Assembly: GCA_903813345.2 (NCBI GenBank)
Contig: CAIIXF020000003.1
Span: forward strand, 22,893,248 to 22,957,247
Source of the DNA: Owenia fusiformis
Taxonomy: Eukaryota; Annelida; Polychaeta; Sabellida; Oweniidae
Direction of reading: 5' to 3'
Length of the DNA: 64,000 nucleotides
Of this stretch, positions 586 to 28,000 are shown in pieces (within the stretch, counting starts at the first letter, position 1; each line of letters opens with the position of its first letter). Under the pieces are notes generated by a model. The model did no database searches and was not told the DNA's origin. It saw only the letters and a list, made by a program, of their open reading frames with translations. The position numbers and the translations under genes are program-made.

Positions 586-1398
586 ATGTTTTGCTCAACT
601 ATGAGCTTTGTAACAAATGGCACTGACAGTGTAAAGTCCTTGTTTTGCTCTACAATGCACTTTGTAACAAATGGCACAGACAGTGTGAAGTCCTTGATTT
701 GCTCTACAATGAACTTTGTAACAAATGGCACTGACAGTGTAAAGTCCTTGATTTGCTCTACAATGAACTTTGTAACAAATGGCACTGACAGTGTGAAGTC
801 CTTGATTTGCTCTACAATACACTTTGTAACAAATGGCACTGACAATGTAAAGTCCTTGATTTGCTCTACAATACACTTTGTAACAAATGGCACAGACAGT
901 GTAAAGTCCTTGTTTTGCTCTACAATGCACTTTGTAACAAATGGCACAGACAGTGTGAAGTCTTTGATTTGCTCTACAATGAACTTTGTAACAAATGGCA
1001 CAGAAAGTGTGAAGTCCTTGTTTTGCTCTACAATGCACTTTGTAACAAATGGCACAGACAGTGTGAAGTCTTTGATTTGCTCTACAATGAACTTTGTAAC
1101 AAATGGCACAGACAGTGTGAAGTCCTTGATTTGCTCTACAATGAACTTTGTAACAAATGGCACTGACAGTGTAAAGTCCTTGATTTGCTCTACAATACAC
1201 TTTGTAACAAATGGCACAGACAGTGTAAAGTCCTTGTTTTGCTCTACAATGAGCTATGTAACAAATGGCACAGACGGTGTAAATTCCATGTTTTGCTCTA
1301 CAATGAACTTTGTAACAAATGGCACAGACAGTGTAAATTCCATGTTTTGCTTAACATTGCGCTTTGTAACAAATGGCACTGACAGTGTTAAGTCCTTA
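586..1398. repeat. 54-bp minisatellite, about 15 copies, starting at a SPIDR 5' splice site
   Basis: A 54-bp unit is repeated head to tail about 15 times with a few substitutions per copy; each unit contains TTTGTAACAAATGGCAC and GACAGTGTAAAGTCC-like blocks. The array ends within 2-3 nt of the GT donor of the SPIDR exon at 1400-1481: on the minus strand the intron begins GTAAGGACTTAACACTG and the units continue as CAAGGACTTTACACTG. The first two intron bases differ in the units, so they do not copy the GT. Because 54 is a multiple of 3, long repetitive frames are open on both strands; I regard these as a consequence of the repeat and not as genes. Confidence 0.95.
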
Positions 1399-1399
1399 C

Positions 1400-4300
1400 C
1401 TCTTGTGACTCTTGGGAATGTTTAACAGTTAGAACATCAGGTCTCCAGACACTCTCAATAACACCAAATAGACCTAGACATCTGGAATGAGGAAACAAAG
1501 GGATTAACTTAATAATGATAGAAATATCAGAAAGGGCAACATATAACAAGGGCAATACTAGAAACAGACGATACCTAGAATTAACATAACAAAATGTCCA
1601 CATCTGGTTTCACACAGTACACTGTAATCTATAATATTTTCACAGAGAAAGTCTAGTTGAATATTAGTTCTTAAAGTGCCCGATAAACTATAAAATGCGC
1701 ATGCGTACAGGTGTTGATAAACTATAAATAGCGAAAATCCAGGGTTTGTCACCACAAGGTAAGCCAGGACGTGTTGAGAGAACAGCTAGTGTTGATATTG
1801 AATTTACATGTAGCCAGATAAGTTTCCTTATTGAAATTACGTATGGTTATCAGCAATACTTTGTAGGTGCTAAATAATAAAATATTTAGAGTATATATGA
1901 GAGAAATTGGTCATTTCGAACCTGTTGAAAAGTTTGTGGCTCTCGGCTACACCGGGGAATTTACTTCCATGAGTACACACATAAATGTGGGGTTCCCCAA
2001 GAGGTACGCGACAAGGTGACCTGGCATCAAATGTGCGACTAAATGCTACTATCGAGAAGATAAAATAACGAATAGGACAATAAGTTATTGCATGTGACAA
2101 TTCCAAGCCTTCATCTCACTGAAGTATTTTGAAGTAAAAATAGGATTTTTGTTTTGATACATGGATTATGATGAACGTAACTTTATTCTGACAACTAATC
2201 AAAACTGAACAAAATTGATTGTATGTAACAGACAATTTATTGTTTTACAATGTTTTGATTGGCTAAACGAATGAAACCAAGAAATTATGACATGTAAAAT
2301 GACAATTTTGAAATGTAAAATTTAAAAGTGACAAACACAACCTCCCTATCCACTCTTTGGGAGCCCTAGTAAATTAGTAATATGTACATGCAGCAGTGGT
2401 AGTGTACAGCTTATTATCACACTACGCTTTGTATTCTAAAGCCTGTTGTTTGTAATAACACTGTTCACTCAACGTATGTTTTGTGTGTGGGCAGTCAACG
2501 ATAATCATTGTTTTATCCCGGTTATATGACCTCGGCAATTATAACAGAACCGTACTAAACGAAAAAAACGCAAATAAGAAAAAGCTTTCACACACATATA
2601 AAAAATGAACTAGTCTAATCCGCCAGTATAAACTCTGTGCTATACGTAGCCGGGTCAGGCGCACACTTTAAGTTATTGCAAATCAGACAAGGCATTAACA
2701 TGCAAAAAGTTGAACACCTGCGGCCTGCCATTTGCTACAGACACTGCACGTTGACAACCGAACGCTAAACACAATCCACAAAAAAACTTGGAGGCTATAA
2801 CAACATGTCACCACTTGTGGTGGTGACATAAAAAAATTTCTTGCAGACTGACAGATGCCCCATGAAAATACATTGCTGCTAAAGGTACGAATCCCATGTG
2901 AGATTGAATAAAATTGACAGGTAAAACATAATTCTGTTTCAAGTGATTTTCTTTTGCTCACCTGTCCTTGTATGTTCTCTGTGTGACTTTCAGTGATGTA
3001 AAAATACATTCTTTAGCAACTGCCTCTTCTATGAAGTCTCTTTGTTGCTTGCTCTCAGCCCAGCCATGTGGAACTTCTAGTACACAGAATGAACCATAGA
3101 TGTCCTCAATTAACAAAGAGAATCTGAAATGAAAGAACCAGCCATGTGGAACTTCTAGTGCACAGAATGAACCATAGATGTCCTCAATTAACAAAGAGAA
3201 TCTGAAATGAAAGAACCAGCCATGTGGAACTTCTAGTACACAGAATGAACCATAGATGTCCTCAATTAACAATGAGAATCTGAAATGAAAGAACCAGCCA
3301 TGTGGAACTTCTAGTACACAGGATGAACCATAGATGTCCTCAATTAACAATGAGAATCTGAAATGAAAAAACCAGCCATGTGGAACTTCTAGTACACAGA
3401 ATGAACCATATATGTCCTCAATTAACAATGAGAATCTGAAATGAAAGAACCAGCCATGTGGAACTTCTAGTACACAGAATGAACCATAGATGTCCTCAAT
3501 TAACAAAGAGAATCTGAAATGAAAGAACCAGCCATGTGGAACTTCTAGTACACAGAATGAACCATAGATGTCCTCAATTAACAAAGAGAATCTGAAATGA
3601 AAGAATCAGCCATGTGGAACTTCTAGTGCACAGAATGAACCATAGATGTCCTCAATCAACAAAGAGAATCTGAAATGAAAGAACACAATGGCAATATTTC
3701 AAAACTAGTTACAGCGTTTGCAGCCATCTATTACATCCAAACTAGAAACAATACCACAACATGACATAATGTGTCCATGTCTTAAGTTAGTGTAAATGGT
3801 TAGAAAAATGTAACAATGCTTTATAGTTGTCAAAGGCAAACACAAGTCACAGAAAAGGGGGACAATAAAAACTGAGCAAATACTCAGTAAATGGAGTTAC
3901 TAATGTTGTCAAACAAAGGTACATCTACTTGTGGTCACATACAAAGTCTGATTTATTCTGCTCACATGTAAGATAATTGCTTACCTGATATCATTCTGGT
4001 CAGTTGGATTGATACTGGTCTTCTTCATGGTCTGTTCTGTTCTGAAATCATACACAAAACATATAACATGTACATGTACACAGAGGTTTCATTAGCAGCA
4101 TGCCATAGACAATTTTCTCTTAAAGTTATTGCCTGTTATTTCGCGAGGTCATAAAACTACTGTTAACAGTGACATGGGTTTCTACTTATAAATGTCACAC
4201 CTTTCTGTCTTTGAATCTTTCCAACAAAACAACCTCTGTAAAGTGGCACGAAATGATACTGTGGCCCCATCCCCTTGTTTCTCAATGCTCTCCAGTATGG

Positions 4301-7300
4301 ATCTGGGCATTTCTGGCGTATCAAGTTGAGAGGGTTGTGATTTTACTAGCTGTAACCTGGGTGGATTGGTTGGACTGTTAAAACACTGGATGCTCTAAAA
4401 TGAAAAACATAATAGGACTTCACTGTTATCATATTTGATGCAGAACTCAAAAGATATAAATCATGAAATGTAAGATTGAACTGTAAACACTTAACATTGA
4501 GCCTTTTTACAATAAATCTTTTTCATAGTCTCATTAAGTTGATTAATGGCTGAGCTTCAACCCAACTACATGTTTATACATTCATTGTTCAATAAAAAAG
4601 GCAATTCATGACAAAGAAAATCCTAAGCTTTTAATATGCTAAAATAGCACTTAATGTGAAAGATGCTAAACACCTTTGGAAAGACTGTTTTAAAATCAAA
4701 AATAAATGGAATTAAAAATGAAAAAATTAAAAACAAATATTTTGCCAACCTTGGGGCCAGGTGCCCATGTTCCTACACAAGGGTTCATATTGGCAACACA
4801 ATCTTTGTAACAGACATCAGGATCTGAAATAACACGCTCAATTATGAAGTGCATGTATCACAATCAAAATTAAACGAGCATTTTTTGGTAAAATTATTGT
4901 GCAAAGACTCTTGAACAAGAAGTTCTTCTAAAAAATTTGAAAATCTTATGATAGACATTTTTTGTGAGGATGGGAAACGACTGAAAATATGCAAACATTT
5001 TATTGTACTGTATTTGTGCCTATTGTGGCTCCCATAAAGTTGCAACTGCACAATTTTAGATTTAAGTAAAAGTCAAAAATCAGAATAACATTAGCCCCAA
5101 AAATACTCATACAAAGGAGAATGTAATTATGTCGCGAAAACTGTAATAACCTAATGAGCAAGGGCACTGCCATGATGCTATTGGTACAAGACAATTGCTG
5201 GGCTTGGGTTTAGCTGTGACATCATCAGGTTGCTTCATGACATCATCAGGTTGCTTCATGACATCATCAGGTTGCTTCATGACATCATCAGGTTGCTGGA
5301 TGACCTGAGTGAACTGAGTGCATAAAATCACTGGCTTTTTACTACTAGGGAGATCCAATCTTTGCCTGAAATATTATTCAAATATGATAAATGATGATGT
5401 CACAATTGAACTATATGATGGAGTATGAATGATTACAAATTGAGTAAAAGGCCACCAAAATGGCTTCAAAATTGCGTTTTTTCTTGTTTGTTTACATTAT
5501 TAATAGAAGACCGACCTTGATTTTAAGATTCATCGCAATCATATGACCTCCTTGAACACAAAACTAGACAATGGTGGAATCAGCAAATATCAGGTTTTTT
5601 AATTTCTGTTATTTGATATATTTTTGTTGTTTTGTAACAAAGTGGAAGATATATAAAGTTGCTATTATTCAGTTATTATTTACCATGGTGGATCTATCTT
5701 GATGACACAGCCTTGCTTTACAGCTTGATCCTCTTTCAACAAGACTATGTACTCCTCTGTGGGGATATCGAAACCCTCAGAAGTATTTCCTCTTTCACTT
5801 GTTTCTTTGGTGGACATTACAATGTCTTCTTTGGGGATCTCAAAACACTCTGATGCATTTCCACATTCATTTGGCTCTATAGTGGGCATCACAATATCGA
5901 GTTTGGAATTATTTTCAACAACATTTTGAGTTGATTTTGGATCACTGCTTGTACGATTTCCATTATTTAGTTCTCCTTGGATACATCTTTTTCCTGGCAT
6001 CTGATCAGATATATTGACGCAAGTTGCGATTTGTAAATGTGAGTCAGATTTCTCAATGCTTTTAACCTTTAGCATCATAGCATTCTTCTTTTCTGAAAAT
6101 TATTTTAATGTCATTTTTAATAGATTATTAGGTTTTTATTGCATAATAATGTTTATCAAAAATAAATTAAACATAGTTTATAAGGAGGGACTAATCTCAA
6201 AGAACATTATTGTCGGCATCAGCTATAGTCACATGACGATTATAATTTGGCATTAAAAAATAAAAATAAAAACTGAGGTAATTGCAGTACATTAATGAGA
6301 GAAATATTGTGATCCTGTTTAGTTTAAAATTGCTGACTCTATTCTTTTACACTGTACATGGTGTTTTGAACTCTATATATGCTGTCTCAATTTTGCTCAT
6401 TCATTTAAAAAAATTACCAGTTTTTTTATGGCTCCAAAATGTATGTGCTGTTTTCTCTCTCTGCTGTAACCTAAGTAACTGCTCAGCTAGACCATCCCTA
6501 CAATATAGACATGTTACACAAAGCAATTGTGGCACTAATTCAGACTGAGGAAAATAAATAAGCAAAAATAGATATGTAAACAGTATCATCTCATAAGGGG
6601 TTCGACAAAAGTATTATTTTTATATCCTGGAACAGAAATATCTTCTTCAGAGATATCAGATTTTCCCTGTGATATAAGCTTATTATTATCTGAAACCTCC
6701 AATAATGCTGTCACATAAAATTAAATGTACAACAATACCTGATGTACTTTTGTTTCTTCTTTTTACCCGAATCTACTGGAGTCTTAGCACATGTCTCGGT
6801 GTTTTGCGACTTTTCAGGTGTTTTATGCCATGTGACTTTCTTTAGCCAATCAGATCCCTTCAGTTTGTCAGTTGATACGGGCTCTTGTGGAGACTGCGTC
6901 GCCGTGGATATATTTATAGAGGAATCTAATTCTTCTGAGCCCTGAATTTTGTAATAACATTTACATTTACAAGAGTTGCACATGAATTTTAACAATGCAT
7001 AAGATTAACATGCAAAATGTCACCACCTGCTATTTGTTACCGATGCCAACCACCGAACAATGTTACAGAACCAAACACCAACCACCAACTTCTGTCCAAA
7101 AAAAGTTGGAGACTATTACAATATGACAAAGTAAACCAAAACCATGATCTGAGTGCAGAGTAAGATCAAGAATATAAATCTATTTCCTTCCCCACACTAA
7201 ATAAAACATGAATTTTAAACTGTCCAATAACATTCTCACAATGAGTTAGCAGAGAGTTAAGCCACCAATAAAATCAGAAGTCATTATATTTGTTTTGTTT

Positions 7301-8816
7301 TTGTTATTTTCAATCCCTGCCATTCCCTGGCTCTCAGTTTACATGCTTTAGCTATTAAATTCTATCAAATGTTATCATGTTTTGTACCTAATTGCATTGA
7401 TATGAGTATTGAAGGTTCATAAAGAATTTACTGATTTTGCTACTTCTATTTTGAACTCTAAATTCTCTAAATCTGTACATGACTTTGTAAATGTAATATT
7501 TTTTTCAAAATATCAAAAGCTAATTAACACCCCTGCCTACCTTAATTCAAGAGTTCTTACCAATTTATTGCTTTGATTCAATGGTTCATCATCTTGTTTT
7601 TCTGTGTCTGAATTATACTCTGATATACAGATATCAATTATTCCCTGGAAAATGATAATACAGTGTATGCAAGAGTAATTCAGGTCATTAATTTATTTAA
7701 ACATACCGGTAGTTAAGAAATATTGTACACTGTATTGCATAAATGACATTGCTCAATCTGTGAAGAGTGTAAGCTGGAGAGCTTAAAAAATTATCTGCTT
7801 TTCAGTCAAAAGTCAGTAATTAGGTTTCATAATTCCAAAGTTCTTTGACATATGATTGGATAACAGTGAAATCATGTATCAAAAAATAAAAAGGCATAAA
7901 TAAAAACATAGAAAAAGAGACTTGGAGCAAAACATTCGACGTGACACACTTACATCAGTATAGCTAGATGGCGGTGATTCTCCACTGAGATCTGGTGATA
8001 ACTTTGTGGTTGATAGCTCAAGCAAAAATGATGATTTTGATGATGCAGTTTGAATATAGGGGGAGCTATTGTCACTGTTGTCTTCTAGGACACATTTCTT
8101 TTTCTGTTTCTGAGAGAATTTTGAAGAAAATTTTGGACTTGGTGGTGGAGATTCGTCTGAGGAAAGTTTAGATATTTCCCCCTCTTCGTCAGAAGATTCC
8201 CAATCAATGTCCGCTTGCGACAAAGGAGGATCATAGTTTCTTCCTGAAAATACAACATATTGTATAACTATTGAGTGACATTTTAAGCCCTTTAGATAAT
8301 GATTTCACAGATTATGCAAAGGAATTCAGTATTTTTCATATATTAATAATGAGTGGATGAAAAAAATCTGCCAAATTTGATTAACTGAGGTAGGGATTGA
8401 AATGAGATAAAGCAGTAGGAAATGTTACTGGGGAGATCTTAAATGTACGGTGTATCGTACCCATACTGTTAGGGACCGCTAACAACAAATTTATATCATA
8501 ATGTCAATACCCAGTTTTCCAAATTTTTATTAATAGGCAACTTACCTCTAGGGTCACTAGGCTTCCTAATTTTGGTATCTTCCAGCCTTTCACTTGCTTT
8601 GTTACTTTGTTGCTTTGAGTCTGAAGATATCTTCTTTTTCTGAGGTTTTTCCATAAGTCCCTTGAAACCCTCCATAGCTCTGTCCCATTCATTTTGCCTG
8701 ATCAATGATTTTGTAACTGACGTGAGCTTAGATGCAGATTTATGGCGAGATTTTTCTGGAGAGTCATAGTCATCGACATCAAACTTATCATTGAAAATGT
8801 CTTCATTGTAATTCAA
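1400..8816 (-). CDS. SPIDR: SPIDR (scaffold protein involved in DNA repair), N-terminal and central exons; both ends incomplete
   Basis: SPIDR bridges BLM helicase and RAD51 during homologous recombination in the nucleus. Coding exons, in transcript order, are 8546-8816, 7954-8243, 7561-7644, 6739-6941, 6418-6497, 5684-6092, about 5200-5365, 4750-4823, 4201-4394, 3985-4041, 2962-3123 and 1400-1481. Phases agree at every junction except the uncertain 3' end of the 5365 exon. Conserved blocks seen in order: acidic IDWESSDEEGE, EYNSDTEKQDDE, DGLAEQLLRLQQREK, the DPPWQRLDLPSSKKPVILC block, RSILESIEKQGDGATVSF, SLLIEDIYGSF, and GLFGVIESVWRPD. These match the vertebrate protein to roughly its residue 600; the C-terminal third is not visible. 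The first exon shown begins at an acceptor (TTTTTTTCTAG) at 8817, so the start codon lies further upstream, perhaps around 9900. Oddities: an eightfold duplicated acceptor, a coding QPDDVMK repeat and a minisatellite at the last donor. Confidence 0.85.
2692..2835 (-). repeat. Dispersed TGGTGACAT-family repeat, copy 1
   Basis: The copy begins AAGGCATTAACATGCAAAA and ends near CACCACTTGTGGTGGTGACAT. It shares its two ends with copies near 6990, 28230, 38590 and 52305. It lies in the SPIDR intron between the exons at 1400 and 2962. The rest of that intron (1482-2691) shows no gene or clear repeat that I can support. Confidence 0.6.
3064..3687 (-). repeat. 78-bp minisatellite: eight tandem copies of a 3' splice site plus partial coding exon of SPIDR
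   Basis: The unit on the minus strand is a 15-nt pyrimidine-rich acceptor (GTTCTTTCATTTCAG) followed by 63 nt of exon encoding FSLLIEDIYGSF..VLEVPHGW. Copies start every 78 nt, and candidate acceptors place exon starts at 3669, 3591, 3513, 3435, 3357, 3279, 3201 and 3123. The unit is a multiple of three and has no stop in that frame, so retained copies read through as 26-residue repeats. The transcript-5'-most copy differs: GGCTGG has become GGCTGA, a stop, so use of the first acceptor would truncate the protein. The 3123 acceptor gives the exon that matches the family without an insertion. Confidence 0.95.
5216..5299 (-). repeat. 21-bp coding repeat (QPDDVMK x4) inside a SPIDR exon
   Basis: Four nearly identical 21-bp units encode QPDDVMK three times and then QPDDVTA, directly after the conserved VILCTQFTQVIQ stretch. 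The expansion keeps the reading frame and falls where the family is expected to be a flexible acidic linker. The exon is open through it. Confidence 0.9.
6988..7132 (-). repeat. Dispersed TGGTGACAT-family repeat, copy 2
   Basis: It has the same orientation and start as copy 1 (GATTAACATGCAAAATGTCACCACC) and similar internal words (ACCGAACAATG, CAAAAAAAGTTGGAG). It lies in a SPIDR intron, 47 bp from the 6739-6941 exon. Confidence 0.55.
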
Positions 8817-9035
8817 CTAGAAAAAAATAAAAATACATACTCAGGGATGTCATTAGAATTCCTGAAAGGAGGATCAGTGGCATATTGGCATATAAAGGAG
8901 GAGCAATAATGGAAGATGGCTGGCTGTAAAGTTCTAACAAATTTAATTGAAACTGTTCATTATCTAAGCTATTCTTCAATCTTGTTTGGTGAGTCGGTGT
9001 GGTTTAGACTTTGAAAGAAATCTTTGAAATACAGT

Positions 9036-9133
9036 ACAGGGAGGCAATGTCGTCCATGTAGGTAATTGTCGGACACTCAATGCAGGCCTTCCTTTGTCCG
9101 ACAGTTACCTAAATGGCAATGTTGCCTCCCTGT
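9036..9133. repeat. Long hairpin in the SPIDR-EDC4 spacer
   Basis: The arms ACAGGGAGGCAATGT...GTAGGTAATTGTCGGACA and TGTCCGACAGTTACC...ACATTGCCTCCCTGT-type sequence pair over about 38 nt with a few mismatches around a loop of about 18 nt. It could be a short MITE or a structured transcript. Confidence 0.75.
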
Positions 9134-9244
9134 CCTCTATAAAGTAGGCGATTTTAATTTGGTCATTATAATTGTGTTCAGTACTCTGTACTCCCGGTAA
9201 CTATTATAATTTTGTGTGTTTTGAAAATTTGCTTTGAAATAATA

Positions 9245-9252
9245 TGACGTCA
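9245..9252. promoter_or_regulatory. CRE octamer TGACGTCA (site 1)
   Basis: This is a perfect palindromic CREB/ATF consensus within AATAATATGACGTCATACTG, in the divergent spacer. The surrounding words are repeated at site 2, 42 bp away. Confidence 0.6.
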
Positions 9253-9286
9253 TACTGTTGTATTCGTACTTGTTAGTGAAATAATA

Positions 9287-9294
9287 TGACGTCA
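9287..9294. promoter_or_regulatory. CRE octamer TGACGTCA (site 2)
   Basis: This second perfect CRE is in the context GTGAAATAATATGACGTCACACTG, which repeats the flank of site 1. The spacing of 42 bp is about four helical turns, which would put both sites on one face of the DNA. Confidence 0.6.
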
Positions 9295-10059
9295 CACTGT
9301 TTTCTTTAGCTACGAAGTGATATAACCAGAGACATCATATCGTTACTATTGACTCCGTAGAAATACAGCCAACCGTATCGCATGAAAATTAGTCATGTGA
9401 TACGGATTAGATCTATATGTTGTCCAAATTGACCAATCAAAAATTGTTAGAAACTCCTAACCATGTGATAAGACATACTGAGATTAGTAGGACGCCTATT
9501 GATATAGGCCTATTGCAGAAGGAAATTTACAAACCCTCCTCTTTCTTGATTCACGACTCCAATTATTCCAGGACATTGTTTATGTACAAAAAAACGTCTC
9601 CTATCAGAGCTGAGATAAAGCCACGTTGTTTATGTACAAACACTTCTCCTATCAGGGCTGAGATAAAGCCATAAATTTGAAATAGAGAAATTAAATCGAA
9701 AAAGTCGAAAATCGAAACTTCCGCCAACTTCACCTCCTTCTTTGAAGAGTCTAATTTTTTTTATTTCGCCCTTTATTTCTTAATTCAGGGTCAAAATATC
9801 ATATATAAATATATAGCATTGCAAAATTTTATACAAAGAATTGTTATATGTATGGTTCTGCCAGAAAATATGCTTTTGACCAACTCTCGAAATCACGGCG
9901 TGGCCACCTGTCGGCCATGCTGAGAATTACCGGCGAAACTGCCAAAATAATATTTTCAACGATTTGAGATATTTAGCCTAATATTATTGGATCTATACAT
10001 CAAAATCGTTTATTGGAGACGTGGAAACATACATTACTAGTTTATCCAGTTTTCAAGTA

Positions 10060-13000
10060 ATGGACACTCCCAATAGTTCTGTTTCATCTCAGGCAACAAG
10101 TGAAGCATCTCAGCTGTTGAAATTTTCTGTGATTTTGAAAGATTTGCTGAATATTCCAGATGATGTAGGGATATCCCCTGGATCTACTGAAACAAAGGAA
10201 ATTAGAGGTACGCAGTAAGCTGCATTTCTGTAACCTGTGGCAGTAAATTGCTAGAGTCCAGTTGTTCTTATTACCCTTATTGCCAGTGGAGTGCCATTTT
10301 GTGATATGAGCAAACTGAATACCAAGGTCCTGACAAAGGGACTTTTTCGGCTATAAGCTAAATGCAAATGACGTCCTTATGCAAACCATTTATGAATATT
10401 GATGACGTCTTCTGTGGACAGAGTTCTGGTTCTGATAAGCTTTTACATTACCTTTGTATTATTGAGTAGATATCGAGCCTCATATTAGGTTCAGATATGA
10501 GACTCGATATCTGATTATTGAAGGAGATATTTGTAAAATATTCCTTGCTTCAATGGTTTATGGCTCACAAAGTCTGTCTATCTGTACATTGGTTCATCTC
10601 ATCTGTCTGTTAACATTGGCCACACAAATGGAAATTGCTGTTTGTAATTAGTCTTTGAAACTTAAACCATAGCCAGAATCACTTGCAAATCGTAGATATT
10701 GAACTTCAAGCACAAGATATCCCTGATCAAAGCAAGGGCGTTACAATACCCGGGAATTTATCGGTTCGTGCAGTACTTGTTTGTGATAGCGCCCTCTGTA
10801 GGTCACTGTGCTTATAGCCTACAGTAATACGGGGTAGGATATCGGGAATTCGGTCAGTTTCTATCCGTCGATTTCGCTATGAATTGAAGCAAGTGTGACC
10901 ACTTTATCCACTTAAACAATTTGATAATTGATTAAATCTTTAAACAAAATCGATAAACACGTTATACACTTCCTATCTCCTTAGAAATTAGCATGTATTT
11001 ATGGATTGTGTTTTCGAACAAGGCGCGACCCAGGCCAATAGGGAAATCCTTATGCTAATTAGTATGACGTCATATTTTCCTGGGGAATCCTAGATTTCAA
11101 AGCCTCAGTCTGTTATTGTGTCAAATGTAAACGCTCTTTTGCAGACAGAAAATTGACAGATTAGCTTTTAACTTTCAGCTTTGATGTTTAAATATTCTGT
11201 ATTTCTACCGGACTTCTTGCTGGATATCATATAATGTTATAACTTGATTTGGACCATTGCCTGATTGATCATTCTGAAATTTTGATTGTGATTCATGATT
11301 GATTGGCAAGAAAAATAATTCCTATTGTTTTCCAGCGAAGTCAAAATGTTACAACATGAGTTATAATGTCGAGTTTGCATCATGTTAAATTCTGCTAGTG
11401 ATTAGAAGTCCATGCACAAGCATACACATAAGAGACAAACACACCCAGGCTCCAGGCCGTGGATGGAAATATAAAACTATTTAAGGCACAAACTGGTATT
11501 AATAGACCGATATGTAGTGTCTGTCATGTATTGAAGGTAAACCAATCTGCATTATTAATGTTTCTTATATCAATACATGGATTGTGCAATGGAAAAGCAA
11601 TGGCACAATCAAAAATGTACATATCAATCGTGAATATCTCTCGGTCCAAAGCTTATTTCCAACAGAATCGAGTCAAAATATGTGTCTGAGTAACAGTTAT
11701 ACATTATAAGATCGCAAACTCTTACCAATTATCAGCCGAATGGCTCATTTTCAACGAAATGTCCTTAAGACAACAGCCCTGGGTCGCGCCTGAGACCAAA
11801 AACTGTTTCAAATAGCCCTCCCCTAATTATATTGGATAATCACATTTATGCGTGCGCGCGCAGCTCATCCACTGAACGAAACGCCACTTCCCGCTGAAAT
11901 CACCGGGTATTGATCTTTCCCTTGATCAAAGCCCCTGGCATGAATCTTTTTTAGTTACCAGTCTTCATTCTACATCCTCCTAAGCAGGTATCCAGAATCC
12001 GTACCTCCTTCTTCCCCCTGCTATAACTAATTTGGAAGCGCTAAATTAAACTGAATCACGTGATCTAATTATGCTCAATGACTTATACATGATTTCTATC
12101 GCAGCCAATCAGATTGCGAGTTCTTAATCCGATAATTCTTAATCTGATCCTGTGATCAGAGGATGTCATTCTATTATGTTATGTATTAGATGTTTGATAG
12201 TTGGTGCTGACTGTACATCACCATATCCCAAGTTAAACGGGTTTCCTCGAAACTGTAAATGCTGTCTGATCTTTCATGTAGATGTTATAAGATGTTATTA
12301 GGAATTAAATCACAGCACAAGTGCTCAGATTATGAAAACCTTGAAAATAATTACCAAAAAGGATAGAAGTAATTCATATTAGCTCTCCATTTGTTTGCAT
12401 GGATTTAGTTTCATTATTTTGAAATAAGACACTTATTTAGGATTCAATGTTATTTTCAGATTCATCTGATTCAGTACAAAGTATAGGACAATACATGGCA
12501 GCACCCGTGAATAACTCAAGGTAACACATAATTATTATGCTCTACAGGCCCGTAGCCAGGATTTGCCAAGGGGGGTTCAGTTTTCCCAAATTTCCAGGGG
12601 GGGTTCATATTTGACAATTTTGGCCCAAATATGGCTAAAATCACTTGAGAACTGCTCAAAATGGTGAAAAACTGCACAATTTTTGAAAGAATTTTTGGCC
12701 AGGGGGAACGACCCCCCCCCCCCACTCTGGCTACAGGCCAGAGGCCTCATTATCATCTGGTCGCAACGCAAAATCGCATGCGAATCGCATCGCAAGACAT
12801 CGCAACGCAACTACTTCCCAAAAATGTTATTATCATTCCATCGCATCGCAAGTCTGACGCAAAGTTATCGGTTTTCTGAACGCAACTAAACAAAAAGTTG
12901 CGACGACGTTTACCCTGTCGCAAATCAAATCGCAAATCTAGTTCATCTTTGAGCTTTATTTTATCTATGTTAATGGATATTTTGTGGTGTTTTATATCGG

Positions 13001-16000
13001 TCATTTCACTACCTGTTAAGTATTAATCAATAGTATCGAAGAAATTGTTCAATTTTATTTATTTAATATGATTAAAATATACATTTAATTGAGCCTGTAA
13101 ATCCTTAAAAATCAGGTTTGTTTCTAAATGTTGCGAACGCATCACATACTGTATATGTCTTAGATTGGTGCCTGCAATATTTCGTGCTCTTTAGAGCATA
13201 GGATTTTCGCCAATTAAATATTTATCTAGCTAATAAAGCTTGTTTGGTGAATTAATCTTGCCACTACTACACTAATGTTCTGAGTATTCCTAGTGTATAT
13301 GTACCTCACCTACATCGTCTGCAAAAGTACAAGAACACCAAGATGTTTCATTTCATTCTGGATCACCACAATCGTATTGGCCGAGAAAAAAATAGTATTT
13401 CGAGAGAGGTTTAACCCACTCGATTCACTAAATGACATCGAGATGCTCCAGAGATACAGAATGCCGAGAGCATTGTTAAATGAGGCATGGGCTTTCAACT
13501 AGAATAATCTAATTGAAAGCCCATGATAGAGGTTATAAACCTTTTTGAAGACGAGCTGACACCAAAGAATAGGAACAATCATTTCATCCCGGGGTTTCTA
13601 AAAATGTTGATCACTATCAGATTCCTGGCAACTGGACAACTCCAAATGTCAACAGGAGATACGTTTGGCATTAGCCAATCATCCGTTTCCAATATAATTA
13701 CAGAAGTTGTTACTATTATGGCAAGGTAAGTTAAGAATATGTAGTTTTCTTTTTACTATGTTTTTTAAAGATTCTGACAATTCGAAACGCATAATATCGA
13801 GTGCATATCTCAAAGACATCGTGTCTTTGCCATTTAAACCAATTTCTCGGTAGATTTTCTCTATAATTGTTTGCTTTCAACACAAAACACGATTTTGTTT
13901 AATCAATGATACATTGACAACAATGTGCTAGAGCAAAGTAGTTTGGCACTTCATGAAATACATAATTGTCCCATTATTGTTGCAATGGTGCATATTCTGG
14001 TAAGTTTTCATAAACAACACTATCTATATTTATTATTGGTATATCAAACTATAAAATAGCTCAGATACACCCTCAGGATACACCCCTTGTATACCAAGGG
14101 TGTGATAATACTTATAAACACTCATAGAATTTAAAGAGTCTTACACAGTTAAAGAGTCTTACACCAACGTGGTGCATATTGAATTTCTTGATCTGTTGAT
14201 GGTATACAATAAAGTCTTTATATTTCAAAATGCGTATGCTATAATTGCCAGAATTTTATACATAAGAAATAGTAAAACCTGTGTACAGTGAACACCAATA
14301 TGGAGCTACAAAAATTTGTTCATTGTAGGTAAGTATTTACTACATAGAGGCGATCTTACAGAAGTCAATGGAGTATGTGCTGAGAAGGGGTGTTCACTAG
14401 AAACAGGTGTCCACTTGAGAGAGTTGTTCTCTAAGACAGGTTTCACTGACTGTAGTTTGATTGTGTTTCATACAAAATAATATGGGATAAAAGCTTACTT
14501 TAATTAATTATCAAGAGATGGCCGGAATTTTGAAAATTAAGGCCCATTTTCTTTTAAAATAAGGTCCTTCAATGCCTATAAATGCCCAAAAAGGCCGACT
14601 TATTATGGCCCTACAACGTTTATAGGCAAGAAGGCATGCCCACATTTTTTAGGAGATATCACCCTCCCCCTCGGCTATAGGCCTGTACCAGCACGTTTCG
14701 TTTTGTTTCGTCCAGTGTTAAATTAATGAATTCTTGCATTTTATGAATTATCATGAACTAAGCATCCCCGGTCGGAGTTGTATATTGGGTTTATCATTTG
14801 GGATAATATAGTATCCCATGATACTACTACTTCCTGGTGAATAACACTCAGGAATATTTTAAATTTCGCGCCAAAATACACTCTAGACTTGCGATCGCAA
14901 CTTACGTTTTAATTGTTTTGCGATTGCTTTGCGTCTGCGATTGTGCTCAATTGATAATATCACGCATCGCATGCGTTACGAATTGCGATCGCAATCGCAT
15001 CGCAGACGCAACGCAACTATTTGCGACCAGATGATAATGAGGCCTCAGCTCTGTATATGAAAATTCTATGGATAATCAGTGATCTCCTCAGTTATATATG
15101 CTATATAGATTTATATTTTTTATGGAAATAAATCATTGGTAAAGAAAAATCTCAGCTTAGCACCCCATCAAAATGATAACATGATTGAGATATTTTGACC
15201 AAAACTGCTAAAATAAGGCAGAATTGAAATAAAACATATTCTCAAAGATATTATATAATTTAACATGTTATATTTATAGCTCTGATTCAGACATGAACAA
15301 TTCAGTGACCAATGCTAGTGGGCAAGCCATAATGAATCTGTTAAGGAACAGCATGAATGGAACTGGCAGCCAGCAGCAAATGTTTGTATTTTTTTCAACA
15401 TTAATATATTTTTGTCTTAACTAGTTGTTGTCTTAACTAGCTGGACTAAACAGGAATGCTCTTCTCCAAAGATTAAAGGTTCACCTTATACTAAGAGTGA
15501 GAGAAACCTTGTAGAATTTGAAATAAATATTGTGTTACCACCAACTCTGAAGAACTAAATTAAATTAAATATCTGACTACACCTAAAAAAATATCAAGAA
15601 AATCTGATCATTGCTTCTGATTTGTTTGCAGTATTCTCCAAGGAGATGACAGCTGTAATAGCTTCAGTGTTTACAGTAGTGATGTCACAATAGTTGCAAG
15701 CACTGCCAGTAGTGGCCTCCATACGCCTGGCAGCAATAAGGTCAGTCTGCACATGTAACACTTTATCTCTTTAGGGGACTCAATATTTAGAAGCAAATCT
15801 CAAGTTACTCCATTGTTATAGCCTATATGCTTCTTACTCCAAGGATTTGATCAAAACCTCCAATGAATTAATGTACCAAAGTCTGTTCAAGTATTTTGAT
15901 TTTAAAGTTAAGTTCCACTATTGAACCCATTTACAATATGTCCCTGTCTCTTGTTTTTTGTTTAAGAAACTCCCCACCCCCTTTAAGTATGCTATTCATT

Positions 16001-19000
16001 TTTAAACCCAAAACCAACCATTTTATTCACACTTTGAAGTTATCATGTTTTGCAGGTGAAAACTAGTCCAGTTGTTAATTATGATTGGGAGTCGAAGTAT
16101 TATGTTGGGAATCTCGTAGCTATACACAGAGATGGCATATATGCAGCATACAGTTTGTCAGGTTGGTAACGTTTATTGGCTCACTCTGTATTCAGCAAAA
16201 AGTTACTGTGAACTTTGAACTCATAGAAAATGTTAGAATTAAATCATTATATTGCACTGAGTGAACGTTAACCTGTTTAAGACCTGAATTGGAAACAGGT
16301 CATTAATTAGACCAATCAAGTTTCAGATGTTGATATTTTAATTTATTTTATCAATATTGCTTTTAATAAGCCATAAATGACTGGGACTGACAGCAGTTAG
16401 AAAAATAGGTTAATAAATAAGAGAGAAAATGCTGGATATCATATTTATTTACCCCTGGCCCGGTAACCTGAGAGTTTCATATGTGTAATAAATTAATTAA
16501 TTTTAGGGAAGTCTGGAGGTGTCGTTCGCATCGTGAACCGAAAGACTGCTGAGAGGACCCTCCTGAAGGGATTTATGGGAAAGGTCATTGATATATCATT
16601 CGCCAATTTGAGCTCTGTTGTATTTGCTGGAGTTGATGAAATCGGGAATATGTTCATTTATGAGCTGAACGAGACAATGGAGAATAAAATAACGTATCCT
16701 TTTATAATCATTTATTACTAGGTGTAACAAGCTGTACAAAGTTAGCAATGAAATGAAAGAGAGTGTATACAATCTTGATCCTGTCCTAGTGTCATATTTG
16801 TTTTTAGGCTAGGGTAGGTAATATAATAGTTTAGCATTTCCGTCTGCATCCTTCTAAACCCCTTATCAATTTGAGAAAATCAAAAAATGCTAAACTGTTA
16901 TGTTAATTACCCTGGCTATATCTCTTGTTCAACCAAAGTAAACAAGTGAATAGGTTCTCTCATGAAATAATTTGATTTGGCCTTAACCACATAAGCACCA
17001 CCCTGTTACTGCAAGTAAATCGACCTGAGGGTGTGTCCCCCTCTGACTACCATAGGGTAATCTGGTGCCCTTATATACCTGATGAGGAGGAATATCCAGG
17101 AGAGTTGGACGATAACAGCAAGCTACTCGTCCTTACTCATGAAAATGTGGTATGTTACAATTTATTTTTAATCAAGTGGTTGCGTAAAAAATAGAATAAT
17201 ATTCACTCTCTTCTGAAAGACTGTGATACTGGAATGACATAATGCTACTCATTGAAGTTTTAATGTATTAAGTTTAATGACACTAAGACTGTGTTCCTTT
17301 AAAAAAAAATTTCGTCTCGTCCAAAATTGATACATTGATATTTTAACATTTCCCTTCTTTCAAAAGGTGATATTTCTGGCATGGTAGTACAGAATATAGT
17401 CCTAGGGTATAATTATTAGCATGAGGGATTATCATGCCAGCTTGCAGTGTCAGTATTTTCTAAAATGTTTGATATTTCATTTTCAGGCTGAAATGTGGAG
17501 CATTGATATTGTGACACGCAAGTTTGGATGTGGACCCCTTTATCCTGATGATATTGATGTTGGATACCTCGTCATCGACAGCCATACAAAGGTTAGTAAT
17601 ATACAGACAGGTGTTGGCTGGGGTCCAGATTGTTAATGTCTCAGATTGATTCTTGTTTTTTTATTTAATCATTAATTGACCATTTGGTCTTTGGAAATAA
17701 ACCAGTTCTTATACACCTGAAGATTATCTATTTAATTAATTGTTAATGTCAAGAAACTAGTGGTTAAAATTACAAGCATCTAAATGTCTCATCAAAAAAT
17801 CCAAATGTATCATCTGTATTTTAATGGATCAATATCCCACAAAAAAATCACATAAAAAATCACACAAATACTGTGTTTCATGTTTGATTAAAATTTGACC
17901 TTTTTCTCGAGTGGGTGCAAAATTCTCATTTTCACAATTCAGACCAAAACTGGTCAAAATATGCCCATATTTCATGATTTTTTTCATTTTCAAGTGAGTG
18001 CAAATGAATTCCCAGGTGGATGCAAGCCTGTCTTTAAAATCTCATGTGGGTGCTGTGCCCAGTTGCTTTAATGCTGGGGAGATCACTACATCTCAAATAA
18101 AATATCATCACACCATCTTCAAACAAAGTACAGCATTATTATTGTTAACCTCCATCACTATTACGATTGAATTTTCCAGGCGATAATGGATGCATCCTTC
18201 TCACCAGATGGCACTGCCCTAGCAACAGCAAGTCTCGATGGAGAAGTGAAATTTTTCCAAGTCTACATGCATGAATCAACATCTCCACGCTGTCTTCACC
18301 AGTGGAAACCACATGAAGGGAAACCTCTCTCTTGTTTATTCTTTCTTGATGACCACAAACATCCTAACCCAGAGTAAGTACAAAGTGCAATCATGGGCAA
18401 ATAAAGCACCAAGTGGAGGTCGATATAGTGTATTAATGGTTCAAAAGTCTTCATTGGACAAAATTGCTAAAAATCAGTGCATGAACAACTACAAGACTTT
18501 AGATAAGGCTTAGTGTAGTAAAAGTAAGATAAGTAAAAATATACGTTTTGCACTGCTCTTTTATTTATCAATTACATACTGTTGGAACATTTAATTTTGG
18601 CAAAGTTCTGGAGCATGCAATTCAACCAAGAAATAGCAAGAATTTGTCACAATTTAAAATGTCTTACTGCCTTACTATCCAACGAAATAAACCATTCCAT
18701 GCAATTGCCAATTGTCACAATTTAAAATGTCTTACTGAATTACTATCCAACGAAATAAACAATTCCATGCATTTGCCAAATATGTTAGTCCATCTACATT
18801 TATTTACATGATCATGTGTTTCAGTGTCCAATTCTGGAAGTATGCAGTGACTGGCGCTGACAACAACAATCAGATCAAAGTCTGGAGCTGCGAGTCCTGG
18901 ACGTGTCTTCAGACCATCAACTTTACTGCACCAAACAATTTGTCATCTGGTTACATAGAGCCCATTATCAAAGCCAACATAGATCTCAGTGCCAGCTATA

Positions 19001-22000
19001 TGGTGCTTTCTGATATTAAACGCAGCGTAAGTAGCCACAATACATTGGCAATTTGGTGTTAGGAATATCAATTTGCAATTAATATACTACTTGTATGGTA
19101 CATTTTACTGAAATAATTGATGTTTACAGTGATGTAATATCCTATTGTACATGGTATGTTTATTTTCACGCTAGAATTGTATTATCGAAAAATACACAAT
19201 CTAATTATAATTTATCCCTCATGAACCCCCATATTTACTTCTCACCACTGGGAGGGAGAAGAAAAGGGAATTTACAAGTGACTTGAAACGCCTAGAGCCA
19301 TATTTGTTTTTTACTTTAGGTTCTGTACATTCTACACCTCCATCAAGACGCTACTGCTGGTAAAGCTCACGTCAGTTCAGTGTCAGAGTTTATCCTGGCC
19401 AATCCCTGTCTCAGTTACGCTATTCTCGATGCAAGCAGAAGGAAATTTAAACGATCTGCTGAGCATCATGAGATGGATGATGTAACAACAGGTTAGCGGC
19501 ATCTGATCAACATTTTAAATGTTTGAACTATAATGTGAAAGTAAATCCAATTTAAAGTAGATAACCTTCTTATTTCAATTACTGTTTCTATCGCATTTTT
19601 ATTATTCATTACACAACATTGATTAGTGCCTGTCATTATTTGATAATGAGATGTTGATTGGTTAATGCACATAAATACATGCCTGACATCATCTCTTAGT
19701 AATGTATCAGTGCTGCAATTAAGCTTTATTTATGCCTTGTCAACTGTGGAAGCCTCTGGACAATTATTTTCGGAAAGACAATTTGTCCAGCCAATTATTG
19801 AGGTCCTTATCTTCCAGCCTAATGTATGTCATCTTTCATTAATGCATACCACCATCAATTACTACTGTAACAGTCTTAATATTTGGTTCTAATGTTTTCC
19901 AGGTGAGATCATGAATGATGAAGATGAAGAGGAAATCTGTGACAGAATGGAAGAGGGTTCAAATATTGGTGTCTTAGTCAAAATGTACTCACTCCATTCA
20001 AAGTAAGTCATACTTGTACTCACTCCATTCAAAGTAAGTCATACTTGTACTCACTCCATTCAAAGTAAGTCATACTTGTACTCACTCCATTCAAAGTAAG
20101 TCATACTTGTACTCGCTCCATTCAAAGTAAGTCATACTTGTACTCGCTCCATTCAAAGTAAGTCATACTTGTACTCGCTCCATTCAAAGTAAGTCATACT
20201 TGTACTCACTCCATTCAAAGAAAGTCATACTTGTACTCACTCCATTCAAAGTAAGTCATACTTGTACTCACTCCATTCAAAGTAAGTCATACTTGTACTC
20301 ACTCCATTCAAAGTAAGTCATACTTGTACTCGCTCCATTCAAAGTAAATCATACTTGTACTCACTCCATTCAAAGTAAGTCATACTTGTACTCGCTCCAT
20401 TCAAAGTAAGTCATACTTGTACCCACTCCATTCAAAGTAAGTCATACTTGTACTCGCTCCATTCAAAGTAAGTCATACTTGTACTCGCTCCATTCAAAGT
20501 AAGTCATACTTGTACTCACTCCATTCAAAGTAAGTCATACTTGTACTCACTCCATTCAAAGTAAGTCATACTTGTACTCACTCCATTCAAAGTAAGTCAT
20601 ACTTGTACTCGCTCCATTCAAAGTAAGTCATACTTGTACTCGCTCCATTCAAAGTAAGTCATACTTGTACTCACTCCATTCAAAGTAAGTCTTGTAACAA
20701 AGTATTTATTCATTGCAATGTATCGGGTGAACTGTCCAAGGGGTAAAATGTCTAGAAACCCCTTTCCATTCAGTTGATTGTCAAACATACCAATGCAACA
20801 TTCAACCTACATTCTAAATTCATGCTATGGAAAGACAGTTCTCATACATTGTAGTATTAATACCTCATCCAGAGATCAGATTACAAGACTACAATCATGC
20901 ATTTGCTTTTAGGGCGCTGCAGGAACTACAGATACGATTTAAGCCAGAATCTTCTGTGACTTTCCCCAATACAGCTTGCTCTGTAAGCTCAGTCTCCCAG
21001 GATGAAATAGGTATTTATTAATAGGTTTCCAATTTTCAAAATCCAGTGGTATAAAGAAAATTTATCAATTTATTTTTTAAACAAATTTAATTTATAAATT
21101 AATTTTTAAGCAAAATTAATTGGTATACTTTTTTAGGAAGCTTAATTTTTTTAGAAGACATTTGTTATATCTCTGAAAAATTATGTAAATAGTTTCATTT
21201 GAGGTTTGAAAAAATATGTCTTAAAAATATGCCTTTTTGGTCTTAAAATGTGTTAAATTAATATTTTTGTAGGTCTGAAAGATGGCCTGTCTGATATGAG
21301 TATGATATCAAGCTCAGAAAATGAAGGTTTCCAGACAGATAAGTCGACCAAAGATGTGCCTCACCCTGTACTCCTTACCCCTGATGCCTTTACATCTAGC
21401 CCTGTGTCTAGGTAGTGTTTCCTAACCTTTTTAGGTCTTTAGTGAATGAATCAAAACATATTTAGCCCCTTAAAGGTCACTGAATGTTAATGGAAGGTTA
21501 AATCGCATATGCGATTGTAGATATGAATTTAATGAAGTTGTAGAATGGAATTTAACCTTTTGACCTCAAATATGTGGAAGGTCAAATCTCACATCTGGTT
21601 ATGTGAATATAATCCTTTTTTAAATTTAATTTTAGGATTTTAATTTAACCTTTTGACCTTCAATATATGTGGATTTATGATTTTTACATTGATTTCTACT
21701 CAATAAGTATGTGGTCTGAGTCTGAAAGTTATAGATACTATCAATGTGTAACTAAAGTGAAATACAAATGTGAAGTGTGAAATATTTTATCTAAAACCCT
21801 ATTAATGTGTAATAAGGCTGTTTATTATTATGTTTTTAGGATAGCGACAGATACTAGTGCATCTGATGGTAGTATTCTCCAAAGCAGTACAAGTAGCAGC
21901 TTTACACATGTAACAGCCATGTTGGAAGACCAGGTGACCACCCCTCAACTTACAGGCTCACCCAGTAGCTCAATCACACTTACTCCCTCCTCAACAGCCA

Positions 22001-25000: not shown

Positions 25001-28000
25001 GAGTGAAATTTTAGTGTCCCATAATGTCACCTTGACATTTTTATGACGAGTGTCACTTAAACTGTAAATGTTTTCCTAGTGACCCGTTCAACAATGAAGA
25101 AAGTATGTTACTGTCATCCAGTATGAGTAGTCCAGACAAGCCCAGTAAACCCCAGTCTGTTCAAGACACTAGGTACTATTATATACACATTTATTTTGCA
25201 CCAGTTTCAATAACATTGCAGTTTACATTATTCAGGTGATAAGATGGTGTAATATATCTGGAATTGCATGCTAGATTCTGTTTCAATCGATATAGTTTTA
25301 AGTTCAAATTAGCACTTGTTTCATAATCAGAAGCTTTATCAGTTTTGCAGTCATTTCATAATCTGAAATTATTCATTTTTGCCCATGTTGTATAATCTGA
25401 AATTCAGTTTTGCACTTGATTCACAATCTGAAAATTGTTCAGTTTTGCACTTGTTTCAGAATCTGAAAATTGTTCAGTTTTGCACTTGTTTCAGAATCTG
25501 AAAATTGTTCAGTTTTGCACTTGTTTCAGAATCTGAAAATTGTTCAGTTTTGCAATTGTTTCAGAATCTGAAAATTGTTCAGTTTTGCACTTGTTTCAGA
25601 ATCTGAAAAATTGTTCAGTTTTGCACTTATTTCAGAATCTGAAAATTGTTCAGTTTTGCACTTGTTTCAGAATCTGAAAATTATTCAGTTTTGCACTTGT
25701 TTCAGAATCTGAAAATTGTTCAGTTTTGCACTTGTTTTGTTAGGTTTTGCAATTTTTTTATAATCTGAAAATAATCTAATTTTGCGCATTGGACTTGTTT
25801 TGCACTTCATAATCTGAAAATTATTTCACTTGATTCTTAATCTGAAAATTGTCCAGTTTTGAACATGTAACATATTCTGAAAATTTGATAAATACAGTCA
25901 TGCTAATAATACTTTTATTTTTAATAAATGATTTTATTTAATTTAGGCAAAATCATTGTGTAAATCAATTTGTTCAGTAACAATTTCATCATTCCCAATC
26001 TAACTGTTGAGCAATCTTTTTTCAGTCGAGACCCGCTGCCAGTTATATACAATGTCCCTATGAAAGAGGTAAGTGATTAACAACATTGATTTCACTTATG
26101 TCTTCCATATATGAATTAAATGTTGCTATGCATATGACATGCTCCTGACTTATATATGTATAAAGACCTATAGGAGAGCGTTGAGTTACTTGATTTCAAA
26201 AACTTACACAATGGAGTTTGTTTTACCCATTTTAAAATCTGTTTTTGATATTGTTATCAATATTATTTATTTATCATTCTACATTGTTGTTGAGATAAAT
26301 CGAATTAATCTTTTAATGAAATCTCAAGTATGACGACTCACTCTCTAGATTTTTAATCTAAGGTCAACGATACAATGCAGCAGATGTCAGCACTGTTACG
26401 AGAACATCAGAATGAAGTCCAGCAGTTGCGCTATGAGGTCCAAGAACAAAGAACTCAGCTGAACAGACTTGAACACACTGTTGGACGCAGAGTTGAGGGG
26501 GCTCTTACTCAACACTCACAGAGTGAGCGTATCCTTTGACTACTGAGGCCAAGTTTTGTATTAAAGATATTCTCTTGAGGAATTTTCATTCCCCACATCA
26601 ATACAATATCTTCACTGGCTATAATATTCATTAGCCTACCTTTTCTTCATCTTTATCTTTATGTGAAAAAATAAGTCATTTTTTTATTGTTCGAATCAAT
26701 CTTTGAATTTTTAAAATAAGGCGATTCTTGTTGTCCAATAATGTCAAATTCAGATATTCTTTATTTCCAAAATATAATTTCATTGTTTTAACCTTGCTTA
26801 GTGAAGGTTAATATACTAAAGTGAAATAACTCATAAAAAGATAACTTTTATTTCTGGTATTTTCTTTGCCTTAGCATCCTGGAATTTGAATGAAAGTTAT
26901 GACTTGAAAAATTGGTCCGAAAATCCTGAAAAAGGAATAAAAAAAATCTTTACTTCTATAATGGAATGCATTATAGGTAATTTCTTGACCAATCAAATCC
27001 ATAATTTCAAACAAAATCCTTGACCAATAACAGAGGAGAAACTTCATGGTCTCCTGGGGGAGAAACATCAAAAAGAACAGATTCAGCAGGAGCAGCTACT
27101 GGCTAATATGACGCAATCTCTACAGTCGACACTATCCAATAAAATAGACAGAATCGTCAAACAGGAAATAAAAAACAATGTGATACCAAGTATGTCATCT
27201 TTTATAGAATAGCAATATATGATAACAAAATGATTGCTTCATTTGATTTATTAGTTTTATGGTGAGTGATTGTCCGTGGCCCAATACAGTAACTACTACT
27301 GTACCAGTTCTTGTATTTTATGATCTGAAAATTAAATTGTATAGCATTATATGATGACGAAAAATCAAGAATAAAAAAAGAGATGAATTATTAGAAAGGG
27401 ATAAAATTTCTACAATCCAAATGACTATGCAATATTAATGTAGTCTCACCTCCAGATATAAATATAGATGGCGTGTGTGTAGATTGGTTCCCCTCCTTCA
27501 ATTAAAATCAATTTATCACATAAATAGAACAATGTCAACAGTTGTACATGTGGCTATTACATATTTATGACAAACATGTCTTATTTTTTCAGCCCTTGCA
27601 AAGGCATTAGATCCATTAAAAGATTCTTTACACCAGGAAATGGCCCAGAAACTTACAGCCACTGACTCACTTATGAAAGAAAATATATCCAAACTAGTAA
27701 GATCAAAAGTAAGTAAATTGTAATAATCTCATCCAACAAAGTTCAGATGATATAGAGAATGGCATCATTGTTGATCTGTTCATCTGTCTGTCCGGGCGAT
27801 AACTCAAATACCGGTTGACAGATTAGGCTCAAATTTCATAGCTGATGCCTAATGGGGATGGGACCTCTGCTCGAGAATGATTTTGATAACTGAAATACTA
27901 GTGGACAGATTCATATGCTGATGCCTGAGGGACAGCCGTACAAAAAAATGTTATCTGTGATAACTCAAAGACCAATTATCGGATTTGGTTCAAATTTTAT

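Follow-up and report, generated by a model that had tools for sequence, protein, structure and literature searches.

Multi-copy minisatellite arrays are over-represented at splice junctions in kinesin regions of the annelid Owenia fusiformis

Introduction

Minisatellites whose units run across an exon-intron boundary are known from amphioxus, as a first-pass annotation of the DNA analyzed here had noted; such 'mirage' arrays were described there in Adh3, TnC, the globin genes BflGb6 and BflGb9, and PGBD5 (PMC3087553, PMC3902484). Tandem duplication involving splice signals is likewise the basis of the AGGT model of intron gain by tandem genomic duplication (PMC3443670), in which, in the available text of that review, the duplicated segment becomes the new intron, whereas in Owenia fusiformis the junction and the intron predate the array. 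In human segmental-duplication genes, variable internal tandem repeats at exon-intron boundaries likewise alter the extent of the intron (PMC2812944); according to the accessible part of that report, their hosts are recent paralogs specific to primates, and exons often retain them too, whereas the genes and motor domains that harbor the Owenia arrays are conserved. Intronic minisatellites have been linked to splicing choices in Caenorhabditis elegans (PMC4039745), and the accessible portion of a report on earthworm metallothionein describes intronic minisatellites, none of them across junctions (PMC12783039). No report of junction-spanning minisatellites in any annelid was found in the open-licence literature, to the extent that its text was available.

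The structures described below, in the window and in kinesin genes, match the amphioxus mirages, but they are found in an annelid. As in amphioxus, the units span a 5' or a 3' splice site and differ from gene to gene; they are of minisatellite length, unrelated to one another, and mostly keep the splice signal. Unlike the amphioxus mirages, they have an annelid host, occur above chance in the sample studied, and reach up to 32 copies. RT-PCR and somatic instability have been reported for amphioxus in the available sections of those papers (PMC3087553, PMC3902484), whereas the Owenia arrays are known from one genome sequence.

Results

The window, i.e., the whole stretch of 64,000 nucleotides that was analyzed, holds three arrays that the first-pass annotation had placed at exon-intron junctions of two adjacent genes, SPIDR and EDC4. 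The 78-bp array at a SPIDR acceptor and the 31-bp array over an EDC4 donor were borne out by TRF, open spliced frames, and Pfam, and the 54-bp array starting at position +3 of a SPIDR donor by TRF and the spliced frame; the 78-bp and 31-bp arrays indeed straddle their junctions, whereas the 54-bp array merely abuts one. The 78-bp array (3060..3684, minus strand, TRF) has 8.0 copies, in each of which the last 14 nt of the intron, with a pyrimidine tract and the AG, precede 64 nt of exon. The first exonic bases of the eight copies lie at 3669, 3591, 3513, 3435, 3357, 3279, 3201, and 3123, and the AG is kept in 7 of the 7 extra copies. From the exon-proximal (last) copy, the SPIDR exon runs on in an open spliced frame (2962..3123, minus strand, PF14951), and the exon upstream of the array (3985..4041, minus strand, spliced frame) has a gene-finder score of 12.7. 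The unit equals 26 codons and is open, by eye, across 7 of the 8 copies, so that an inner acceptor could yield an in-frame protein there. Another SPIDR exon on the minus strand (1400..1481, spliced frame, within the DUF4503 match), with GTAAGGAC as its 3' end, has its donor GT at 1399-1398 and is followed at +3 by 15.0 copies of the 54-bp unit (590..1397, minus strand, TRF), which are wholly intronic and do not contain the donor GT. The joined SPIDR exons matched PF14951 (DUF4503; E 1.4e-8, Pfam, open spliced frame), a family that we take to belong to SPIDR. The exon that follows the 54-bp array is beyond the window, and so this donor rests on the frame, the motif, and the Pfam match, which extends to residue 98 of 100. 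Because the array abuts the donor without spanning it, we do not count it as a mirage; in this it is like the amphioxus PGBD5 repeats, which abut 5' splice sites in the available text of that report (PMC3902484).

On the plus strand, 22.8 copies of a 31-bp unit (19984..20691, TRF) straddle the EDC4 donor. Each unit comprises 19 nt of exon and 12 nt of intron, and GTAAGT is present in 21 of the 23 copies. The donor in the first copy is that of an EDC4 exon (19903..20002, plus strand; GTAAGT from 20003, open spliced frame), and the next exon is found at 20913..21010 (plus strand, spliced frame); joined, the exons matched PF16529 (Ge1_WD40; E 3.6e-89, Pfam, open frame). The intron between them (20003-20912) is made up of the array and, past it, about 220 nt that are unique, with an acceptor of its own. 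The units of the three arrays are unrelated, as had been stated, with a longest common word no longer than that between shuffled units. Among eight comparable arrays of the window, two straddle a known junction and one abuts one, which is a lower bound because the gene models of the window are incomplete.

Overlap of arrays with junctions was assessed in 39 kinesin regions of the same genome (252,439 bases; assembly of 498 Mb in 525 contigs, of which the chromosome-size C1 to C12, of 31.9 to 62.2 Mb each, together hold ~477 Mb). The regions were chosen by exon profile matches and not by repeats; outlying exon pieces of the kinesin profile search were excluded, and adjacent regions, e.g., L029 and L030, may be one gene. 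Arrays were collapsed to approximately one unit before exon modelling, and overlap was scored on the one-unit footprint. A small gene finder learned first from 112 kinesin exon segments and in a second round from exons that it had itself predicted with confidence. It yielded 166 confident exons, of which 115 had a kinesin-profile anchor, and 329 junctions; on the antisense strand, it yielded no exon with a score of at least 10. The main set comprised 38 arrays (period ≥20, ≥1.9 copies, TRF score ≥150), and the null consisted of random placements from which wholly exonic ones were excluded.

Multi-copy arrays were over-represented at splice junctions in this sample. A junction lay inside the footprint of 13 of the 38 main-set arrays, versus 5.3 expected (P = 8e-4), and of 12 of the 30 arrays with at least 2.5 copies, versus 3.7 expected (P = 7e-5). 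With a GC-matched null, the expectation rose to 6.25 for all arrays (P = 0.0042) and to 4.5 for those with at least 2.5 copies (P = 5e-4), and the excess fell from 2.5- to 2.1-fold and from 3.2- to 2.7-fold, respectively. The comparison of overlap with chance that had been proposed, run on the kinesin sample only, thus left the original idea standing, and position as the common factor gained support from straddling at 2.1 to 3.2 times the expectation in a sample picked regardless of repeats. With the junctions restricted to those that have a kinesin-profile anchor, 12 of the 38 arrays held one, versus 3.6 to 3.8 expected (P of ~1e-4; the dropped L023 is among the 12). Across variants with exon cut-offs of 8, 12, and 20 and without L014, the counts were 11 to 13 of 38 for all arrays (P = 0.0029 to 0.0046) and 10 to 12 of 30 for those with at least 2.5 copies (P = 3.5e-4 to 5e-4). 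Taking the one strongest array per locus gave 9 of 22 versus 3.1 (P = 0.0015; the dropped L023 is among the nine). A straddling array was present in 10 of the 39 regions, L023 not counted, and L026 harbors three such arrays, besides another whose start coincides exactly with a donor. In the kinesin profile search, a single exon at L019 was seen as 18 matches approximately 159 bp apart. The junction call at L023:836 was dropped (from 14 to 13 arrays), the probable donor lying upstream of the array. L014:8089, a site poorly tracked at the region edge, was kept, as its last unit enters an anchored exon by eye, and L022:284, by eye presumably a KIF5-neck donor, is outside the counted set.

No excess was observed for main-set arrays with fewer than 2.5 copies (1 of 8 versus 1.6 expected) or, in the kinesin regions, for small arrays (2 of 28 versus 1.9 expected), and none of the three arrays there with a period of 10 to 19 lay at a junction. 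Two-copy duplications in the kinesin regions were not enriched at junctions either (3 of 27 versus 2.7 expected); the contrast between two-copy and multi-copy arrays was suggestive at most (P = 0.064), and the two-copy class was small. None of the 38 main-set arrays lay wholly within a confident exon, versus 2.1 expected.

Every unit of a straddling array comprises the edge of the exon and that of the intron, together with the splice signal, and the known coding sequence runs on from the exon-proximal copy. Per footprint, the 13 straddling kinesin arrays hold 17 to 139 nt of exon and 5 to 81 nt of intron; the breakpoints therefore fall on both sides of the junction, and the duplications do not begin where exon and intron meet, contrary to what had been proposed. 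Ten of the 13 are acceptor arrays and three are donor arrays (P = 0.09 versus equal shares). Periods of the straddling arrays in the window and the kinesin regions range from 31 to 159 bp, and that of 6 of the 13 kinesin arrays is divisible by 3, so that there is no clear frame rule. A stop occurred within 27 to 177 nt in eight of the nine kinesin arrays readable in the exon frame (the ninth was open over three units, and the other four of the 13 were unreadable in that frame), so that distal copies would rarely be able to act as a coding exon. After filtering, 95 of the 97 extra copies in 11 arrays had kept the splice dinucleotide, a count that omits copies with less than 75% identity or reaching beyond the array, as well as L014, L013, L023, and three arrays with one extra copy. 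For comparison, many units of the amphioxus mirages, which are ~10 to 160 bp long, keep the AG or GT, according to the accessible text (PMC3087553, PMC3902484). In an unfiltered walk along the copies of 14 arrays, the dinucleotide was present at 87 of 99 sites; the misses were mainly those of the 33-bp L014 array, which was poorly tracked (3 of 11).

In MAFFT alignments of the extra copies of 12 arrays, 10 of 235, 6 of 233, and 22 of 235 sites were variable at codon positions 1, 2, and 3, respectively, with third positions varying more than the first two (P = 0.0013; random-frame P = 0.0098). In-frame stops were found in the exonic parts of 1 of 97 extra copies, versus 5.1 at random (95% range, 1 to 9, which includes the observed count). 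The codon-position pattern modestly suggests that copies come from, or are corrected by, the coding-constrained copy; intronic sites in these alignments were variable at 20 of 369 versus 38 of 703 for exonic sites, and as intronic variation does not exceed exonic variation, the signal of constraint is a modest one. A great excess of intronic variation among the extra copies was gone after alignment with MAFFT and had thus been misalignment. The correlation between the difference from the real copy and the distance to it was 0.74, 0.47, 0.37, 0.14, 0.09, and -0.10 in the six longer arrays, and unit identity did not differ significantly between junction arrays and other arrays (P = 0.15, L023 included). 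If persistence were at work, one would expect arrays of greater age or a gradient of similarity toward the real copy, and neither was consistently observed.

Junction arrays also occur beyond the kinesins. Eleven clusters (at least 2 pairs, by eye) of the donor word AAGGTAAGT were present among the first 100 of 141 places, and ten of these arrays were checked on the exon side. In 6 of the 10, the donor of the first copy coincides exactly with the end of a predicted exon. These exons matched UDP-glucose dehydrogenase (PF03721), FANCI (PF14676, below the curated cut-off), the Ig I-set domain (PF07679), NCS-1, and, weakly (E 0.01), an ABCC5-like transporter; the sixth, without a convincing database match, is presumably DIP2-like. 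Five of the six score >9, and the remaining one, with a score of 3.8, is that with the Ig I-set match. At L049, a 7-codon call at the word (score, 3.5) was left uncounted; L045, within a UCH-family gene, was unscored, and L042 and L048 had no exon at the donor-word array. In the control-word set of ten arrays in twelve pieces (clusters at C1:46.7 Mb, C8:38.0 Mb, and C11:10.4 Mb left out), an exon with a score of at least 8 touched the array in 0 of 10 cases; at L058, a weak call of 14 codons (score, 5.8) lay within the repeat. Since the donor word favors donors by design, these loci show reach beyond kinesins and are no measure of enrichment. Genome-wide, pairs of AAGGTAAGT at 20 to 50 bp numbered 141 per 7130 single words, versus 112 per 11815 for the backward control, and pairs of MAGGTRAGT numbered 751 per 20044, versus 359 per 23062. 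Pairs per single word were thus 2.1 to 2.4 times the control for donor words, with a few huge arrays dominating. The AAGGTAAGT and control words gave 11 clusters each (at least 2 pairs, C1 to C8, first 100 places, by eye), i.e., approximately 1.7-fold per single word.

Discussion

As the cause of the excess, we infer, with somewhat less than even confidence, that splicing tolerance is combined with preferential growth or persistence of arrays on the coding-constrained copy at the exon edge. A junction-spanning duplication would be harmless because the spliceosome could splice at the exon-proximal copy and remove the other copies with the intron, and being harmless it would escape the selection that removes exonic duplications. 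The exon-proximal copy, under coding constraint, may seed or correct the other copies, so that junction arrays would grow and stay recognisable longer than intronic arrays. The excess would then arise in growth and persistence and not at the birthplace of the duplications. Since the null without exonic placements already covers splicing tolerance, the excess needs something more, and the enrichment of multi-copy but not of two-copy arrays, together with the codon-position pattern, argues for growth or persistence more than for seeding.

A passive filter, which we consider unlikely but deserving of weight, would need only that duplications are commoner in the GC-richer DNA that bears exons, with exonic ones purged and straddling ones absorbed by splicing; the junction itself would play no special part. 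Exons have a GC content of 43%, versus 33% elsewhere, the non-junction arrays are also slightly GC rich (median, 35.9%), and both the lack of arrays wholly within a confident exon (0 of 38 versus 2.1 expected) and the smaller excess after GC matching (2.5- to 2.1-fold for all arrays and 3.2- to 2.7-fold for those with at least 2.5 copies) fit such a filter. However, the excess persists when GC matching and the exclusion of exonic placements are applied together (P = 0.0042 for all arrays and P = 5e-4 for those with at least 2.5 copies).

We also think it improbable, if well short of negligible, that duplications are seeded specifically at junctions, with splicing, polymerase pausing, R-loops, or breaks raising the duplication rate at exon-intron borders; a process that seeds repeats at splice sites had been suggested in the first-pass annotation. 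Its positional component holds in that arrays are over-represented at junctions, and by unit identity the junction arrays are no older than others. The surplus of acceptor over donor arrays (10 versus 3, P = 0.09) would fit polymerase pausing at 3' splice sites. The seeding component found less support: the units straddle the junction, their ends do not coincide with it, and junctions hold no surplus of two-copy duplications (3 of 27 versus 2.7 expected).

Intron gain by tandem genomic duplication (the Rogers model), with an exonic AGGT segment duplicated and the array as the new intron, is reviewed as a real route (PMC3443670) and was put forward for the amphioxus mirages (PMC3087553), as far as the accessible text of these papers goes; it is very unlikely here, as the EDC4 intron continues past the array for about 220 nt of unique sequence, with an acceptor of its own, and the units of acceptor arrays contain intron ends with pyrimidine tracts, so that the intron is older than the array. 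Chance is hardly credible in view of P values of 7e-5 to 0.005 across the main set and its variants, even with arrays dense enough (38 main-set arrays in 252 kb) for some to land on junctions, with subsets that lack an excess (1 of 8 with <2.5 copies, 2 of 28 small arrays, and 0 of 3 with a period of 10 to 19), and with a donor-word locus count not clearly apart from the control.

Returning to growth or persistence on a constrained copy, it is possible, though on balance we doubt it, that splice-junction minisatellites are a general and independently recurring feature of animals, in which the constrained copy would act as a self-renewing template that keeps adding to the array; splicing tolerance would then combine with recombination to drive steady repeat growth at exon borders and to supply spare splice sites and proto-introns. 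In the Owenia sample, about a quarter of the kinesin regions are affected. The host studied here is not a cephalochordate, the group in which mirages were described, and it carries an annelid haemoglobin-linker domain: a profile search placed the C-terminal domain PF16915 at three places on C6, and for the place tested, the best solved relatives were haemoglobin linkers (best E, 0.0025). The linker chains matched by this locus are presumably from annelids. A search of the Owenia genome for GFP gave no match, and the control genomes were likewise without a match, which makes this a weak test; a search for COX1 gave no match either. The GC content of the window is ~35%, and that of amphioxus is ~41%.

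Should mirages prove common in both an annelid and lancelets, they can no longer be regarded as a cephalochordate oddity. They provide many natural test cases of how splice sites are selected when the spliceosome is faced with up to dozens of nearly identical ones, they bear on a proposed route to new introns, and with long-read population data, bias in origin versus persistence becomes directly testable. Mirages also confuse gene annotation and assembly.

Arrays in other genes of the assembly

In the kinesin region L026 (G000:C6:40702800-40711300, where G000 is the window's own genome assembly), a single region held three junction-straddling arrays, that is, tandem repeats whose units span an exon-intron boundary, together with a fourth array that started exactly at a donor. 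Junction arrays may be clustered by gene. In the UCH-family gene L045 (G000:C4:3647443-3648143), which was retrieved through its donor-word array, the peptide start ANA recurred every 81 bp ahead of the exon ANAGHYTAYTK, and this recurrence is perhaps a second, acceptor-side array adjoining the donor-word array.

Repeats and introns of SPIDR and EDC4

The SPIDR region contained a 21-bp array of 4.2 copies (window positions 5217 to 5304), which read by eye as MKQPDDV repeats in a minus-strand frame and is perhaps a coding repeat. A 91-bp repeat present in two copies in a second kinesin region (L023:836-1016) was similar, again by eye, to a stretch of SPIDR intron at about 2680 to 2780, and the two might represent a dispersed element.

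Judged against the consensus, the EDC4 intron at 16694 to 16995 resembles a U12-type intron, having the donor GTATCCTTT and a CCTTAAC element close to its acceptor. Within an EDC4 intron, a 35-bp array of 12 copies (25312 to 25737) carried the acceptor-like motif TTGTTTCAG in its unit, yet lay away from any junction, the next acceptor being about 290 bp distant.

Other genes

A plus-strand gene at 53794 to 56260 had lysine-rich exons and was eIF2-beta-like (PF01873 match, E = 8.8e-4, under the curated Pfam cut-off). On the minus strand of G000:C9:37986009-37994334, one myosin-head exon (model positions about 18 to 84) occurred in 12 unevenly spaced copies, which look like a mutually exclusive exon cluster of a muscle myosin heavy chain.
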